Source of the DNA: a virus
Length of the DNA stretch: 44,477 nt
Strand: one strand, 5' to 3'
Virus record (IMG/VR): IMGVR_UViG_3300032523_001495
Location: 1-44,477 of that record
Part shown: piece after piece, positions 4,869-20,191 of the stretch
Layout: each line of letters starts with the position of its first letter
Position numbering within the stretch: the first letter of the stretch is position 1
The notes under the pieces: model-generated
Databases searched by the model: none
What the model was told of the DNA's origin: nothing
What the model saw: the letters and a program-made list of their open reading frames with translations, nothing else
Translations under genes and position numbers: made by a program

Positions 4869-5046
4869 CGTCATGGCCAGCAACGCCAGCCGCGACGACC
4901 CGACGTGAGCCAGGCTGGCCTCGCCATCGCCACGCTTGAGGCCTCTAGCAGGCCCCAGGAAGCCCGATCTTGCCTGAAGAGTGTCCCCAGTCGCCTGAAC
5001 TTGTTACAGGTCAAATTTGGGGCTCTCGTCGAAATACTTCGCTCTC

Positions 5047-5188
5047 CCTATATACAGGATTTTCCAGAGGTAAAAAGTAGAGGTTTAAGAGGTTTAACCC
5101 CCAAAATCGGGAATATCCTATCGAAAAACAAGGAAAATTTGTCCTATATACCTATGCTGCGAGAAAGGTTTAGGACAGGTTTAAGAGG
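5047..5188. repeat. Two copies of a two-block element with exact 25-nt spacing
   Basis: Block 1 (CCTATATAC) lies at 5047-5055 and 5143-5151. Block 2 (AGGTTTAAGAGG) lies at 5081-5092 and 5177-5188. In both copies exactly 25 nt of unrelated sequence separate the blocks, and the copies are 96 nt apart. The shorter motif AGGTTTA occurs twice more, at 5090-5096 and 5166-5172. The island is far more AT-rich than its surroundings, as expected of a promoter, operator or replication-origin region. Confidence 0.7.
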
Positions 5189-5635
5189 CCTAAGAAATCT
5201 GCTGGCTCGATCGCCAGTTTTTGAGCATGGGCGATGCCCTCCCATGCAGAACTTCAGCGATCTTGCGAGACGCGCTCCTGGCGACCAGAGCAAGAGCCAC
5301 ATCCCACCACTTGGTTCTGCGAGCCCCTCTCGCCAGGCGAGGCCACTGCTCATGTGGCCATGTCACCAACAACAAGTCATCGCGACGAGAAGCCTGTCGA
5401 ATCGAAGGCTCTCTGCCCCAGCGCATCGAGGCTTGAGTCGCTCGCGAGGAATCCTCGAAATCAAGTCTTCCCAACTTTACTGGCGATCCAAGTCTCGTCA
5501 TGATGAACAGAGGCACCCACCCCCAGGGAGTCTCTTCGCGAAAGTCGAATGGGCAGGAAGACCCTGCGGACTCGCTTGCGTGAGCGCCTGCGGAATTTTT
5601 GGGGGGGTGTTTTCACGGCCGAAAACCGCAATTTC

Positions 5636-6100
5636 ATGGGACGCACCCCGCAGCCCACCAGTCTCAAGATCATTCGCGGCAACCCGGGCCAGCGAGCCCT
5701 GAACGCCGCCGAGCCGCAGGCTCCTCCGGCCGATCTGACCCCGCCCGACTGCCTCGACCCATCCGGGATCGAAGTCTGGAACGAGACCGCGCCGCTCCTG
5801 GCGAGGATGGGCGTTTTCACCCAGGTCGACCGCCGACTCCTGACTCGCTACTGCCTGCTCCAAGAACAGTTCGCCCATGTTCTGAAGCACGTTCGAGAAA
5901 ACGGCATGACGCAACTGACCCAGACCGGATATTCGCAACTGACAGCGGAGGGCGCGCTGTTCAAGGGCCTGCCAGCGGAACTCCTGCGGATCGAGCAGCA
6001 GTTCGGAATGACTCCAGCAGCCCGATCAACCCTGAAGGTGAGCAATGCCGCTACCCAAGAAAACCCGCTTGCCGCGTTTATCACGAAGCGAAGCGGTTGA
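5636..6100 (+). CDS. Terminase small subunit (P27 family-like)
   Basis: About 154 residues from the ATG at 5636. The N-terminus reads GRTPQPTSLKIIRGNPGQR, the hallmark start of P27-type small terminase subunits, followed by a helical body (LLARMGVFTQVDRRLLTRYC and LTAEGALFKGLPAELLRIEQQ) and FGMTPAARSTLKV near the end. It recognises phage DNA and guides the large subunit in packaging. No clear ribosome binding site precedes the ATG; the start is chosen because the family begins just before this motif. The frame is open upstream to 5549, but that part is not conserved in character. The end overlaps the large-subunit gene by 56 nt. Confidence 0.82.
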   Translation: MGRTPQPTSLKIIRGNPGQRALNAAEPQAPPADLTPPDCLDPSGIEVWNETAPLLARMGVFTQVDRRLLTRYCLLQEQFAHVLKHVRENGMTQLTQTGYSQLTAEGALFKGLPAELLRIEQQFGMTPAARSTLKVSNAATQENPLAAFITKRSG

Positions 6101-7723
6101 GCAGGGGAAGTCGTTCTACTTCCACGCCGAGAAGGCCCAGCACGCGGTGGACTTCTTCGAGAAGTTCTTAGTCCACTCCAAGGGCAAGTTCGCAGGCCAG
6201 CCGTTCACGCTCCTCGAATGGCAGAAGACTGAGGTCATCGAGGAACTCTTCGGGTGGATGAGAGTGGACACCGACACTCGGAAGTTCCGGGTCGGGTTCA
6301 TCGAGGTGCCCAAAAAAAATGGCGCCTTGGCCCTCGCAGCCTAGCGCTGCGGGGGCCAAGGTGACCAGGCAAATCGACCCTCCTCTCTGGAATCGGCCTG
6401 TACATGACCGTGGCCGACGGCGAGCCGGCCGCCGAGTGTTTCGGATGCGCAACCAGCCGCGAACAGGCCTCGATCGTCTACAAGCAAATGAAGGAACTGG
6501 TGCAGGCCAGCCCCCACCTGTCCCAGTTACTGGAGGTTGTCGAGTCTCGCAAGACGATCGCCTGCTCGCCCACCAACTCCTTCTGGCGAGTCATTTCTTC
6601 TGACGCTGGTCGCCAGGAAGGACTCAATATCCACTCGCTCTGCTACGACGAAATCCATCAGGCCAAGGACAGGAAACTGTGGGGTGCGGTTCGCTATGGC
6701 GGCATCTCTCGAAGTCAGAGCCTCATCCTGGCGATCACCACAGCCGGCACCGATCGGGCGAGCGTCTGCTACGAGTTGCACGAGCACGCCTTGAAGTGCA
6801 TGGCCGATCCGACGTGCGACGATCAGTTCTTTGCCTTCGTCGCGGGAGCCACGATCGAAGACGATTACCGAGACCCCGAGGTCTGGAGACTCGCGAATCC
6901 ATCGTTTGGTGCCACGATGGACGAGGAGTCGTTTAAGGCCGACGTCCGCGACGCCGAGGGCTCGAAGGCCAGACTGGCGGACTTTCTTCGATACCGGCTC
7001 AACGTCTGGGTGCAGGGCTCGAACAAGTTCGTTGACCTGACCCGGTGGGAGCGTTGCAAGCGAGGCTACCCGACGCCAGACACGAAGCGAGAGTGGTTCC
7101 TGGGACTCGATTTAGCGACCACCTGGGATGTGAACGCCCTCGTGGCCGTCTCGAAGGCGATCGACGAAGAGACGGGCGACGAGGTTTTCGACGTCATCTG
7201 TCGGTTCTGGATACCGGAGGACAACGCTGCCCAGCGGCGAGACGAGGTGCCTTACGTCATGTGGGCTCGCGATCCCCGGGTGGGCCTGACGCTTACGCCC
7301 GGCGACACCTGCGACTATGAGTTCATCCGGCGCGACATTCTGGAGTTTGCCAAGAAGCATCAAGTCGTGAAGATCGCGACCGACCCCTACAACGCCCATC
7401 ATCTCCAGCAGCAACTTCAGGCGGAGGGATTGTGCGTGTTAGGCTTCTCGCAGACCCACAATTCGCTCAATCACCCGACGAAACTCTTGGACACGCTAAT
7501 CGCCCAAGGTCGGCTGCGAACTGGGGACAATCCGATCCTCAACAACCATGCCGCCAACTGCGTTCTGCGAACGAACTCAGATGGCTACATCAAAATCCAG
7601 AAGCCCGCCCCCATGAGTTCGGCAAGAGTTGACGGGATGGCGGCTTTGACGATGGCGATCGCGCTGGCGGCCGATGCGTCGGCCGGTTCGCGAAGGCCCG
7701 ACCCGGAGATCATTGTCCTATGA
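6045..7723 (+). CDS. Terminase large subunit, interrupted by a 47-nt segment in Walker A
   Basis: The ATG at 6045 has an AAGGTGA site upstream. The first part (6045-6323) is an N-terminal ATPase region ending FIEVPKKNG; in frame it then runs into TAG at 6342-6344. The rest continues in another frame from AAA at 6371 as KSTLLSGIGLYMTVADGEP. Joining GGC (6321-6323) to AAA (6371) gives a normal 543-residue large terminase with intact Walker A (PKKNGKST), Walker B (LCYDEIHQ) and nuclease Asp motifs (GLDLATTW, ATDPYNAHH, ARVDGMAAL). It pumps DNA into the prohead and cuts concatemers. No single frameshift can repair the gene: frame 0 stops at 6342 and the downstream frame has a TGA at 6362-6364. 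Either the segment is skipped or removed, or the gene is dead. The ATGA at the end couples it to the portal gene. Confidence 0.85.
6324..6370 (+). other. 47-nt palindromic segment splitting the terminase P-loop codons
   Basis: It lies exactly between the Gly and Lys codons of the Walker A motif. Positions 6325-6340 pair with 6346-6361 (16 bp, one G-U pair). The 5-nt loop CTAGC carries the in-frame stop UAG at 6342-6344. The codon before the segment is GGC (6321-6323) and the segment ends with GGC (6368-6370), so the flanks look either like a 3-bp target duplication or like matched take-off and landing codons. Eight A residues precede the first GGC codon. Confidence 0.85.
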
Positions 7724-10677
7724 GAGAGTCCGACGTTGTCTGGACACCAGAACAGGGCATCGAGTCGCCCGAAGTGCGGTCGATTGCCTGGAACAACTTC
7801 CTCCTCTCGGACGAGATGTTCGCGGGCCAGTGGCGGACGGCCGCCGAGATTCGGATCACGCCCGAGACCGCCCTCTCCAGTACTGTCGTGCTGGCTTGTT
7901 GTCGCATTTTGGCAGAGACGATCGCTAGCCTTCCGCTTCATGTCATGCGGCGACAAGAGGCCGGCGGCTCGAAGCCGGCCACAGACATTCCGCTTTACAA
8001 AGTCCTGGCCTTCGCGCCCAACGAGTGGCAGACGAAGTTCGAGTTCTTTGAGCAAATGGTCATGAGTCTGACCCTGTGGGGCAACTCCTACAGTCTCATT
8101 CGATCCGGGCGATACGGAGCAGTCTCGGCCCTCGACAACCTCCACCCCTCGCGGATGAACGTCGAGAGACTTGAGAACGGCAGGCTGCGGTACTCGTACA
8201 CGAACCCCGAGAACGGCCGCCTGGAGTTGTACACACAAGATCAGATCATGCACATCCGCTGGACAGCGGAGCCCGACGGCATCAAGGGCATGGTGCCGAT
8301 CGAGGTCGCCCGCGAGGCGATCGCGCTGGCCCGCGCCTGCGAGATTCACGCCAGCAAGTATTGGGCGAACTCGGCCCGACCCGGCGTCGTGCTTCAGACC
8401 GACAACTCGCTCTCGCCTGAAGCGGCCGAGAGACTGCGGGACAATTGGGAGAGATTGCATAAGGGCAGCGACCGGGCTCACAGAACCGCGATCCTCACCA
8501 ATGGACTGAAAGTCGAGCAAGTCGGATTCAACGCAGAGCAGTCCCAGTTTCTGGATTCCAGGCGATTCCAGAGCGAGGAGATCGCGCGAGTCTACAGGTT
8601 GCCCCTCTCGCTGGTTCAGGGCCAGAGCATGGGCAACATGGAGGCCACCGGCCAGGAGTTCGTCACCTACACGTTGGTGCCGTGGCTTCGCCGGATCGAG
8701 AGCGGCATCTCCCGCTCGCTGATCTACAACGACGACACGTTCTTCGCCGAGTTCGACACCAAGGCGCTCATGCGGGCGAACATCAATGCTCGTGCGGGAT
8801 TTTACTCGACGATGCAGAACCTGGGCATCTACTCGGTCAACGACTCTCGCCGAGACGAGGGCCTGCCGCCGATCGAGCATGGCGACCAGCACTTCGTCGC
8901 GATGAACATGATTCCGCTGGAGCAGGCCGTGAAAGGCCCGCAGCAGCAAGACCCGATGGCTGCGATGATGGGCGGCGGGCCTCCACCCGCGATGCCCGGA
9001 GGGAAGCCCAGCCTGTCAGGCGTGAAGGACGGCGAGGCTCCGCCCGAGGCTCCGAAGGGACAGCCGTCCGAGAAGAAGCCGCCGCTCACCGAGGGCGACG
9101 TCGTGACCTGGGGCGACAACAAGATCGGCGAACTCAAGCACATCATGGAGCAGGGAACGCTCGACCTGAAGAGCGGCGAGAAGGTCGAGGTTGAGCCGGG
9201 CGAGCCAGTGGCGCTCGTCGTCGATCCTCAGAGCGGAGAAGAGTTCGCGGTCAAGGTGACAGAACTCCAGAAAGCGAAGAAGGCCGAGGCTGTCGAGCAG
9301 CGGCGACTCTCGCCCCAGAACCAATCGCTCCACGATGCCCAGGAGCAGATCGTCCGCGAGAAGGGCCGCTGGTCACAGGCGGACTCGCACTACCAAGAGC
9401 GGAATCCGTTCGCCTCGCGGGGCATCCTCTGCCGCAACTGCGTCTACTACGAAGAGGGCGGGTCGTGCGAGATCGTGAAGGGCTCAATTCGTCCCGACGC
9501 GATCTGCAAACTCTGGATCATTCCCGACGAGCGGCTCTCGATTCCAGAGCAGCGGGTCGAGGAGGAGAGTCGCAGCGACGACTGCGGCCGACAGAAGGGC
9601 GGAATGTTCGGTCCGAAGAACAAGTGTCAGGACGACGCTGGCGAGGGCGACTCGTCGAGCGACGGCGACCGACGAGAGTCAACCGGCGACGGGGACGGGG
9701 ACTCTGACTCCGCACCTGGCGACGACAAAGACTTCAAGATTGGCGAGACTACAAGAGCAGCCCTCAAGTCTATCCGCGAAAACGGCGGCTTCTCTGTCAA
9801 TCCGTTCACGGCCGATAGTCCGACAACTGGCTACATGGTCTCAGTCGTCCCGGCCGCCGAGACGATTCTTGATTCGCCGGATGCTGTGACCGACGAGGTC
9901 ATGGAGAAGTTTCTCCAAGACAACGAGCAGGCCTTTCAGGCACGCCCGTCGCTCCATGTGGGGGGTTGGCTGGACAAAGCAACCGGCAAGGTATATCTTG
10001 ATTTGTCCGAGCAGTTCGACGACTTGGACGACGCGATTGATTCTGCCGAAAGCACGGATCAGTTGGCGATCTGGGATTTGAATGCCAAGGATGAAATCAG
10101 AAAGGAAAACTACGATGGCCGACGAAAAAGAAACCGAAAAGAACCTCGTTCGCTTCGATCTCCCAAGAGGGCTCGACGCAAAGTCGATCGCCGCCGCGAT
10201 CCGCGAACACGGACGCCGCATCCTCGACGAGGAGAAGGCGAAGAAAGAGCAGCAGTCCAAGAACGACTGATCGCCACCGCGAGGCGGGTGCTGGGCGACC
10301 AGATGCCCCGCGTCGAGGTTCGCGACATCGGCGAGGCGATCGCTGTCTACGATGCCGGCGAGGACGTCCTGCTCGTCTCGCCAACCCTTCCGGCCGAGTT
10401 GCCGGAAGGGTTCGCCTCGCAGCCGAATCCCTATCTCCACGAAGCGGCTCATCGCGTCCACGCGAGAGCCAATCCGCAGACCTACGAGTCCGCGGCTGCT
10501 CGTGAGTTCACTGCCGAGCAGCGGACCGCGATCACGCACGAAGTGTCCTCAGTCGCGGCGATCAGCGGCCGGGAGTTCGTGGCCGAGATTCTCGCCGGCA
10601 TGATGGCTGGCAAGAAGTACGGACACGACATCCTGTCGCTGGCCAGGGAGGTGGCAGGAAGTGAGGTGATTCCGTGA
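7720..10677 (+). CDS. Portal protein with a long multi-domain C-terminus
   Basis: An open frame of 985 codons. Residues 1 to about 420 are an HK97-family portal: STVVLACCRILAETIASLPL, then WGNSYSLIRS, QDQIMHIRW and EIARVYRLPLSLVQ. It forms the dodecameric DNA gate at the head vertex. After a Pro/Gly linker comes a small barrel-like domain (about 455-520, GDVVTWGDNKIGELKHIMEQ). A four-Cys cluster follows (C571, C574, C583, C596), probably metal-binding. Next are the first Cys tag (residues 621-636) and a beta-rich domain (about 650-795, with LHVGGWLDKATGKVYLDLSE and LAIWDLN). From about codon 800 the frame turns into an Arg-rich shadow of another gene (10115-10270), then becomes protein-like again as a zincin-type domain. 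The real portal polypeptide may therefore end near 10114, but no stop codon is present in its frame. Confidence 0.85.
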   Translation: MRESDVVWTPEQGIESPEVRSIAWNNFLLSDEMFAGQWRTAAEIRITPETALSSTVVLACCRILAETIASLPLHVMRRQEAGGSKPATDIPLYKVLAFAPNEWQTKFEFFEQMVMSLTLWGNSYSLIRSGRYGAVSALDNLHPSRMNVERLENGRLRYSYTNPENGRLELYTQDQIMHIRWTAEPDGIKGMVPIEVAREAIALARACEIHASKYWANSARPGVVLQTDNSLSPEAAERLRDNWERLHKGSDRAHRTAILTNGLKVEQVGFNAEQSQFLDSRRFQSEEIARVYRLPLSLVQGQSMGNMEATGQEFVTYTLVPWLRRIESGISRSLIYNDDTFFAEFDTKALMRANINARAGFYSTMQNLGIYSVNDSRRDEGLPPIEHGDQHFVAMNMIPLEQAVKGPQQQDPMAAMMGGGPPPAMPGGKPSLSGVKDGEAPPEAPKGQPSEKKPPLTEGDVVTWGDNKIGELKHIMEQGTLDLKSGEKVEVEPGEPVALVVDPQSGEEFAVKVTELQKAKKAEAVEQRRLSPQNQSLHDAQEQIVREKGRWSQADSHYQERNPFASRGILCRNCVYYEEGGSCEIVKGSIRPDAICKLWIIPDERLSIPEQRVEEESRSDDCGRQKGGMFGPKNKCQDDAGEGDSSSDGDRRESTGDGDGDSDSAPGDDKDFKIGETTRAALKSIRENGGFSVNPFTADSPTTGYMVSVVPAAETILDSPDAVTDEVMEKFLQDNEQAFQARPSLHVGGWLDKATGKVYLDLSEQFDDLDDAIDSAESTDQLAIWDLNAKDEIRKENYDGRRKRNRKEPRSLRSPKRARRKVDRRRDPRTRTPHPRRGEGEERAAVQERLIATARRVLGDQMPRVEVRDIGEAIAVYDAGEDVLLVSPTLPAELPEGFASQPNPYLHEAAHRVHARANPQTYESAAAREFTAEQRTAITHEVSSVAAISGREFVAEILAGMMAGKKYGHDILSLAREVAGSEVIP
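7959..7980. repeat. Palindrome inside the portal gene
   Basis: A perfect 7-bp inverted repeat (GGCCGGC/GCCGGCC, 8-nt loop) encoding the residues AGGSKPA at a variable point of the portal N-terminal domain. Similar CGGCGGCTC...CCGGCCAC sequence occurs in the IstA linker at about 559-578, which suggests a mobile palindrome family tolerated in frame. Confidence 0.5.
9580..9627 (+). repeat. Cys tag 1 (portal C-terminal region)
   Basis: Encodes DCGRQKGGMFGPKNKC, the first of nine copies of a two-Cys motif found in four head-module genes. It lies between the four-Cys cluster and the GGW-type domain of the portal. Confidence 0.85.
10115..10270 (+). CDS. Small protein overlapping the portal frame
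   Basis: A 51-residue protein starting MADEKETEKNLVRFDLPRG and ending in a Lys/Glu/Gln-rich helix. The ATG has an AAAGGAAA site 8-13 nt upstream. Its codons end mostly in G or C, as in the neighbours, whereas the portal frame over the same bases gives an unnatural Arg-rich string with poor codon use. I conclude that this frame, not the portal frame, is the one under selection here. The mix of hydrophobic and charged residues suggests a helical DNA- or protein-binding peptide. No family is recognised. Confidence 0.65.
   Translation: MADEKETEKNLVRFDLPRGLDAKSIAAAIREHGRRILDEEKAKKEQQSKND
10267..10677 (+). CDS. Zincin-like metallopeptidase domain (separate gene or portal C-terminus)
   Basis: About 135 residues in the portal frame, beginning after the small overlapping gene. 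The motif NPYLHEAAHRVHARANP contains HEAAH (HExxH zinc site), and FVAEILAGMMAG about 60 residues later can supply the third ligand Glu. The helix LLVSPTLPAELPEGF precedes the site. A separate start could be CTG 10267 (overlapping the TGA of the small gene), GTG 10288 or ATG 10303. None has a strong ribosome binding site, so the coordinate is a guess and fusion to the portal remains possible. Small zincins of this type occur in phage head regions and may act on head proteins or on host cell wall or proteins after injection. The end overlaps the next gene by GTGA. Confidence 0.6.
   Translation: MIATARRVLGDQMPRVEVRDIGEAIAVYDAGEDVLLVSPTLPAELPEGFASQPNPYLHEAAHRVHARANPQTYESAAAREFTAEQRTAITHEVSSVAAISGREFVAEILAGMMAGKKYGHDILSLAREVAGSEVIP
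10383..10412. repeat. Perfect 11-bp inverted repeat in the zincin domain
   Basis: AACCCTTCCGG and CCGGAAGGGTT flank an 8-nt loop, encoding TLPAELPEGF just before the HEAAH motif. It is a third in-gene palindrome of this head module. Confidence 0.6.
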
Positions 10678-19996: not shown

Positions 19997-20179
19997 GTGG
20001 CTCAGTCAGGTGACCGATGTCCGACCTGTAAAGTCGGCCGGATGACCACTCGAACCAGCAAAAACTGTGGTTTGGAGCAGATTCGATATCTGCGATGCAA
20101 CTGTTGCGGAGCCCAGGGTCGCTCCGTTGTCTCTGCCGACCGCTCTTGGCGTCGGCCAGAAAAAGAAAAAGTTGTGTGA
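19997..20179 (+). CDS. Small zinc-ribbon protein
   Basis: A 60-residue protein from the GTG at 19997, with a GAGGAG site about 10 nt upstream. Two Cys pairs (CPTC near residue 8 and CNCC near residue 34) around RYLRCNCCGAQGRS form a four-Cys zinc ribbon, as in small phage regulators or Com-like proteins. It sits between the head-associated cargo genes and the capsid gene, and its stop codon forms the loop of a terminator hairpin. It may regulate late transcription or translation; this is a guess from fold and position. Confidence 0.7.
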   Translation: MAQSGDRCPTCKVGRMTTRTSKNCGLEQIRYLRCNCCGAQGRSVVSADRSWRRPEKEKVV

Positions 20180-20191
20180 CACAACTTTTTT
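20166..20191 (+). terminator. Intrinsic terminator with the stop codon as its loop
   Basis: AAAAAGTTGTG (20166-20176) pairs with CACAACTTTTT (20180-20190). The three-base loop TGA is the stop codon of the zinc-ribbon gene and the stem runs into six T residues. It should reduce read-through into the capsid gene, which then would need its own promoter in 20192-20283. Confidence 0.75.

Follow-up and report, generated by a model that had tools for sequence, protein, structure and literature searches.

Hairpin inserts in the Walker A codons of phage large terminase genes as a putative family of translational bypassing elements

The gene of the large terminase subunit (terL) in a viral genome from IMG/VR was split inside its P-loop by a short hairpin insert, and comparison of related sequences indicated that this insert was most probably an element of programmed translational bypassing and one member of a family of such elements in phage terL genes. 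The window under study was the whole IMG/VR virus record IMGVR_UViG_3300032523_001495, with a length of 44,477 bases. A search of related terminases for the same segment, as proposed in an earlier sequence-only reading of this DNA, revealed dozens of metagenomic phage contigs in which homologous hairpin inserts interrupted terL at the same Walker A (P-loop) codons. Because the same kind of insert was present at the same place in so many other contigs, the hairpin was confirmed to be real, not a one-off and far beyond chance. An assembly error could be put aside since the structure recurred in contigs from many metagenomes. To our knowledge, programmed bypassing in phages was firmly known only from one T4 gene, and the only other basis for it so far has been a single group of yeast mitochondria. 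No earlier description of the element was found in the literature searched, the scope of which left out most subscription papers and bioRxiv preprints.

The split terL gene

The first part of terL (6045-6323, + strand) was an open reading frame of 93 codons with PKKNG at its end, and the second part (6371-7723, + strand) contained 450 codons from KST onwards (6371-7720) followed by the stop codon. Both parts matched terminase large subunit profiles in a profile search, namely phrog_10517 and phrog_9 for the first part and Pfam TerL_ATPase and TerL_nuclease for the second. The upstream neighbour was terS (5549-6100, + strand; Pfam Terminase_4). It had been claimed from the sequence alone that a 47-nt segment at 6324-6370 splits the P-loop and that skipping it joins PKKNG to KST in a terminase of 543 residues (93 + 450), and all of these coordinates held. 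The segment, which included the proposed landing codon, was common to the carriers and missing from their empty relatives.

The proposed take-off codon was GGC (Gly, 6321-6323), the last codon of the first part. Directly 3' of it began the 5' arm of a stem (6324-6340), followed by the loop CTAGC (6341-6345) with an in-frame TAG (6342-6344), the 3' arm (6346-6362), a single-stranded tail GACCA (6363-6367) whose length varied in the alignment of the family, and the proposed landing codon GGC (6368-6370), after which AAA at 6371 was the resume codon. Thus, GGC was indeed present at both ends of the segment, and the hairpin with arms at 6325-6340 and 6346-6361, one G-U pair and UAG in a CUAGC loop was as previously described. 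An additional pair, G6324-U6362, extended the stem from 16 to 17 bp. The predicted fold of this hairpin was 6.4 s.d. below that of dinucleotide shuffles.

Other parts of the window contained two unrelated features. A DCGRxEGGxFGPxNxCQDD-like motif occurred five times (at 9583, 10755, 14625, 15153 and 17638) across three consecutive large structural genes, from the portal ORF to the head protease region, a pattern suggestive of copying of a small cysteine module. Just 5' of the major capsid gene there was a perfect 12-bp palindrome (20166-20190; AAAAAGTTGTGT/ACACAACTTTTT) that was unlike the terL element and looked like a terminator or an operator.

A family of inserts at one site

When the downstream part of terL was used as a query against IMG/VR, 50 loci were obtained. 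Most of the loci that reached the P-loop had the homologous hairpin, others had an uninterrupted PKKNGKST, and a few had an intein. The final set comprised 73 distinct terLs, of which 37 had the element, 32 lacked it and 4 had an intein. We studied 33 distinct versions of the insert, which were related to one another so that the counts given below were not independent; the insert of L050 was found last and stood outside the 33.

The family appeared to be restricted to terL. About 40 true matches, all in terL, were obtained together with chance matches when a hairpin pattern required a preceding GGC, and a pattern that ignored the surroundings gave 42 matches, all in the terL P-loop. With the family covariance model, each carrier record gave a single match, and two 90-kb records with an empty terL gave no match. 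Accordingly, insertion into many genes was not observed, every match of the context-free pattern and of the covariance searches being terL, and a single terL was found per record in the 11 records tested. Broader searches added little: a very general insert pattern returned known cases and chance matches only, and a generic scan for hairpins of any kind flanked by matched codons was noisy, with strong matches in terL and a few weaker ones elsewhere at strict settings. In bacterial genomes, a pattern scan of GTDB gave only chance matches, and no copy was detected when 294 genomes of one phylum were searched with the covariance model. A comparison with terLs in sampled genomes of Verrucomicrobiota, Myxococcota, Chloroflexota and one further phylum did not point to a host, as these were only about 36% identical or less in long matches. 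We also noticed two contig pairs, L014/L054 (sample 3300012000) and L024/L053 (3300014050), that started and ended inside terL slightly past the hairpin, as if assemblies broke there.

Proposed take-off and landing codons

In the 33 inserts, the codon preceding the stem agreed with the triplet 5' of the resume codon in 97%, 97% and 61% of cases at positions 1, 2 and 3, respectively, and no other offset approached this match. The mismatches were nearly all at the wobble base, where 8 of 33 pairs differed, and two pairs matched at two bases only (GGC/TGC in L013 and AAT/ATC in L155). Minimal pairing can reportedly suffice, going by the title of Herr et al. 2004. For carriers with Gly codons (the Gly class), taken by themselves, the landing triplet might be a remnant of the original Gly codon. 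However, in three carriers (L331-L333) the same hairpin was shifted upstream by one codon so that it immediately followed AAT, and AAC preceded their resume codon GGN. Moreover, in L050 a hairpin of different sequence followed the Pro codon CCG, and this insert of 51 nt with an in-frame TGA (L050:4927-4977) ended with CCG, after which came AAA AAG AAC GGC. The Asn/Asn and Pro/Pro pairs argued against such a remnant, and Gly, Asn and Pro pairs at neighbouring codon positions were what re-pairing of the peptidyl-tRNA would predict.

The main rival of bypassing was that the hairpin is cut from the mRNA, by an unknown mini-intron or by structure-guided excision and ligation, and that the joined message is then read. 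Removal of the RNA would restore terL equally well, and both purifying selection and a sense-strand structure would fit it. Excision with one cut 3' of AATG and another 5' of GN suited the first loci as well as L013 and L155, which had the two poorest codon matches, but such a fixed boundary (AATG^...^GN) failed in L331-L333 and L050 and was therefore rejected. The gap edges instead shifted together with the repeated codon, and the 3' edge was at a varying distance from the stem. In addition, no archaeal-type bulge-helix-bulge was visible, the window had no Rfam match, and we know of no ribozyme as small as the insert, which also counted against this explanation. RNA-level removal that tracks the repeated codon would still be unlikely, and removal from the mRNA in any form was considered improbable.

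Gap length and reading frame

The lengths of the 33 inserts were 46 (5 versions), 47 (10), 48 (7), 49 (1), 50 (6) and 51 nt (4), which covered all three classes modulo 3, and sister terLs differed by one to four bases. Since close relatives were among those that fell into different classes, no frameshift could explain the set. Inserts divisible by three had an in-frame stop in all 11 cases, compared with 7 of the 22 others (Fisher's test, p 1.7e-4, uncorrected for relatedness); therefore, plain reading would give a full-length terminase in none. The first in-frame stop was located 18-21 nt past take-off or was missing, and a stop adjoining the take-off codon was not seen. As stop positions varied among relatives, the general rule seemed to be a frame-blind gap length rather than particular stops. 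Readthrough with a changed code was rejected as well because TAG, TAA and TGA all occurred as in-frame stops across the inserts, and it would also fail for lengths not divisible by three.

Programmed -1 frameshifting on A AAA AAT, through which the insert would be read and about 16 extra residues would be added to the terminase, deserved separate attention. The arrangement is the classic one, with a stable stem 3' of a slippery run, and the -1 frame was open in 11 Gly-class inserts, where it ended in a Walker A-like GPRRQGKST or similar. On the other hand, the frame needed for a single shift was open in only 15 of 33 inserts and closed by a stop in 18. The window was among the latter, with UGA at 6362 closing the required -1 frame, in line with the earlier claim that stops at 6342 and 6362 preclude a single frameshift. 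L331-L333 did not have the A run at all, and the sister genes fell into all three length classes. The length classes together with the closed frames ruled out a single frameshift, and we regarded the programmed -1 version as very unlikely. As a separate observation, the 47-nt inserts with an open -1 frame ending in GPRRQGKST or similar included those of L005, L039, L060, L066 and L090, either by chance or for a second use.

Selection on the interrupted gene

Downstream of the gap, pairs of carriers had dN/dS values of 0.01-0.15 at dS of up to about 1.4, and terLs without the insert had the same level (0.02-0.09). For example, dN was 0.005 and dS was 0.47 between the carriers L017 and L051. The codons flanking the gap, CCN AAR AAR AAY GGN before it and AAR TCN ACN after it, varied mostly at third positions. 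The intact relative L012 matched the solved structure 6z6d of a terminase large subunit (E 7.6e-50) with its P-loop aligned as expected. Thus, the argument for function from the lack of decay in the rest of terL was strengthened by strong purifying selection downstream of the gap.

The sequence-only reading had offered as its alternative a recent palindromic insertion that killed the gene. A dead or decaying terL would agree with three-base end repeats that resemble target duplications and with the mobile-like character of the element. However, both halves were still under purifying selection after synonymous divergence of up to about 1, the stem covaried and there was no second terL, which excluded the gene-killing insertion for the family and made a dead gene highly improbable. 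Even less credible was deletion of the insert at the DNA level, by slippage between the repeated codons or by a recombinase, with expression of the deleted form alone. Replication slippage can remove a palindrome that is flanked by short direct repeats, which spoke for this idea, but the repeats here were only 3 nt long, often with a different third base, and carriers persisted in many lineages although a harmful insert would favour loss.

The stem as sense-strand RNA

In 32 aligned versions, 98.7% of the stem cells were paired, and six pairs were changed on both sides; the observed covariation was reached by none of 500 shuffles. The stem cells contained 64 G-U pairs versus 2 A-C pairs. Therefore, the hairpin was kept as an RNA of the sense strand, since selection on the opposite strand predicts the reverse. 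The covariance model score was 81.5 bits on the + strand and 31.5 on the - strand. An intrinsic transcription terminator on the opposite strand, suggested by a minus-strand stem followed by GCCATTTTTTTT, had next to no probability given this sense-strand selection, the lack of the insert in the results of the terminator scan and the fact that production of the downstream part would be left unexplained.

Proposed bypassing mechanism

The frame-blind lengths, the selection, the covarying stem and the matched codons supported the bypassing interpretation put forward earlier, and re-pairing fits the match of take-off and landing codons across the Gly, Asn and Pro cases. By analogy with T4 gene 60, the stem would occupy or block the A site, and the ribosome would stall with peptidyl-tRNA-Gly paired to GGC 6321-6323. 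This tRNA would then release the take-off codon, the ribosome would slide past the hairpin (6324-6367), and the tRNA would re-pair with GGC 6368-6370. Decoding would resume at AAA 6371 to give PKKNG-KST, and the gap itself would presumably be left untranslated. The gaps of 46-51 nt fall within the range where T4 sliding stays processive, which extends up to 56 nt (PMC11194080).

Two further features were located 5' of the take-off codon. A Shine-Dalgarno-like GAGGTG (6303-6308, codons GAG GTG) and AAA AAA AAT, that is, eight A then T at the KKN codons (6312-6320), were retained by almost all Gly-class carriers in spite of codon usage, the genes mostly using AAG and AAC. Both were absent in the Asn class and, therefore, could be at most helpers or a co-transferred flank. 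The peptide before the gap was identical in terLs without the insert; a special nascent-peptide signal was not evident, although a generic effect of KKN was conceivable.

Apparent mobility and relation to inteins

On a tree of the 73 terLs, the presence of the element needed 10 changes, at least 8 of which were forced by well-supported branches. One tight clade contained carriers (L017 and L051), empty terLs (L018, L021 and L023) and the intein-bearing L050, which was scored as intein on the tree though it also had its own element. Insert identity barely tracked terL identity (r 0.18), and inserts that were 96-98% identical could sit in terLs that were 45-46% identical. In such pairs, nucleotide identity was 96% beside the insert and dropped to about 40% over the first 60 nt upstream of it, a fall not seen in empty pairs; either transfer with a short flank or functional constraint on the flank would give it. 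Since carrier, empty and intein-bearing terLs were interleaved and near-identical inserts were found in divergent terLs, the element appears to be mobile. It would be a tiny insertion that spreads between phages at the terL P-loop, a site also used by inteins.

Inteins were present at PKKNGK|S of terL in L038, L050, L157 and L158, with LAGLIDADG-like motifs where the sequence was long enough. In L050, the intein (in the region 4978-6000) had such motifs by eye and entered PKKNGK|S at a distance of three bases from the usual element site, and the hairpin insert was located a few codons before it in the same P-loop. Thus, the element and the intein were not mutually exclusive. A link between bypassing and a neighbouring homing endonuclease gene was proposed for T4 gene 60 (PMC5009743), and the intein of L050 hints at a similar link for the terL element. 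HNH endonuclease genes were found near terS in some carriers (L003:13753-14082, L013:4384-4734, L017:4284-4673 and L055:9529-10521). However, none was seen in the window, and a T4-like cassette with a free-standing homing endonuclease was rejected because this association was not consistent.

Taken jointly, these data could mean that tiny mobile bypassing elements colonise the Walker A codons of terL, that Gly, Asn and Pro codons are all usable, that neither an adjacent stop nor a special nascent peptide is needed, and that the niche is shared with inteins. The element may protect terL from the homing endonucleases of inteins by splitting their recognition site, or repair of their cuts may drive the element. 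We hold this combined scenario with equal measures of belief and doubt.

The family includes more than 30 natural versions and so offers comparative data that T4 could not give on the bases, the stem and the codons that matter. This series bears on the need for an adjacent stop and a nascent peptide as well as on the origin and spread of the element. If proven, it would be a recoding element that gene callers take for a broken terminase, and some virome terL annotations marked as 'truncated' or 'frameshifted' may be functional. Moreover, the overlap with inteins makes protection from homing endonucleases by bypassing elements testable.

Comparison with known systems

In T4 gene 60, the tRNA leaves a Gly codon with a hairpin in the A site, and the ribosome slides about 50 nt to a matched codon (PMC11194080). 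The terL elements resemble this case in that the interrupted gene belongs to a phage, the gap spans about 50 nt, a hairpin is located at take-off, Gly codons match at both ends and joining is frame-independent (PMC3014915, PMC11194080). Specifically, the 17-bp stem of the window started at +1 after the take-off codon, codons matched at both ends of the gap, and gene parts that were blocked or out of frame were separated by 46-51 nt in all frame classes. However, T4 has a stop directly 3' of take-off, whereas the terL elements have their stop in the loop or lack one. T4 also has a 5' stem-loop and a KKYK nascent-peptide signal, with nothing special of the latter kind evident in terL; in T4, both the adjoining stop and the nascent peptide are important. 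An SD-like GAG is located six nt before landing in T4, and no conserved motif was found there in the terL family, where GAGGTG instead precedes take-off in the Gly class only. Finally, gene 60 is a single case with Gly codons, and the terL family has 33 versions and uses Gly, Asn or Pro codons.

The byps of Magnusiomyces capitatus mitochondria are similar in that many short gaps are skipped and imperfect codon matches are tolerated (PMC5009743). They differ in being mitochondrial, in occupying 81 places in 12 of 15 genes and in their seeming independence of the mRNA context, while the terL elements were found only in the P-loop of phage terL and had a conserved covarying stem. The scattered, transfer-like distribution of near-identical terL inserts was nevertheless of the kind expected for mobile byps. 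The title of a paper by Nosek et al. (2015) describes these byps as mobile.

For Streptomyces phage Hau3, expression of the terminase gene by bypassing has also been put forward as a possibility, as mentioned in a 2016 review (PMC5009743). That case involves the rare codon UUA and a much shorter gap, and no such hairpin family has been reported for it; the terL elements had GGN, AAY or CCG codons and gaps of 46-51 nt. The inteins of terL, in turn, resemble the element in their location, since in close relatives (L050, L038, L157 and L158) they interrupt terL within the same few codons. Inteins are, however, translated and then removed from the protein, whereas the hairpin gap would not be translated.
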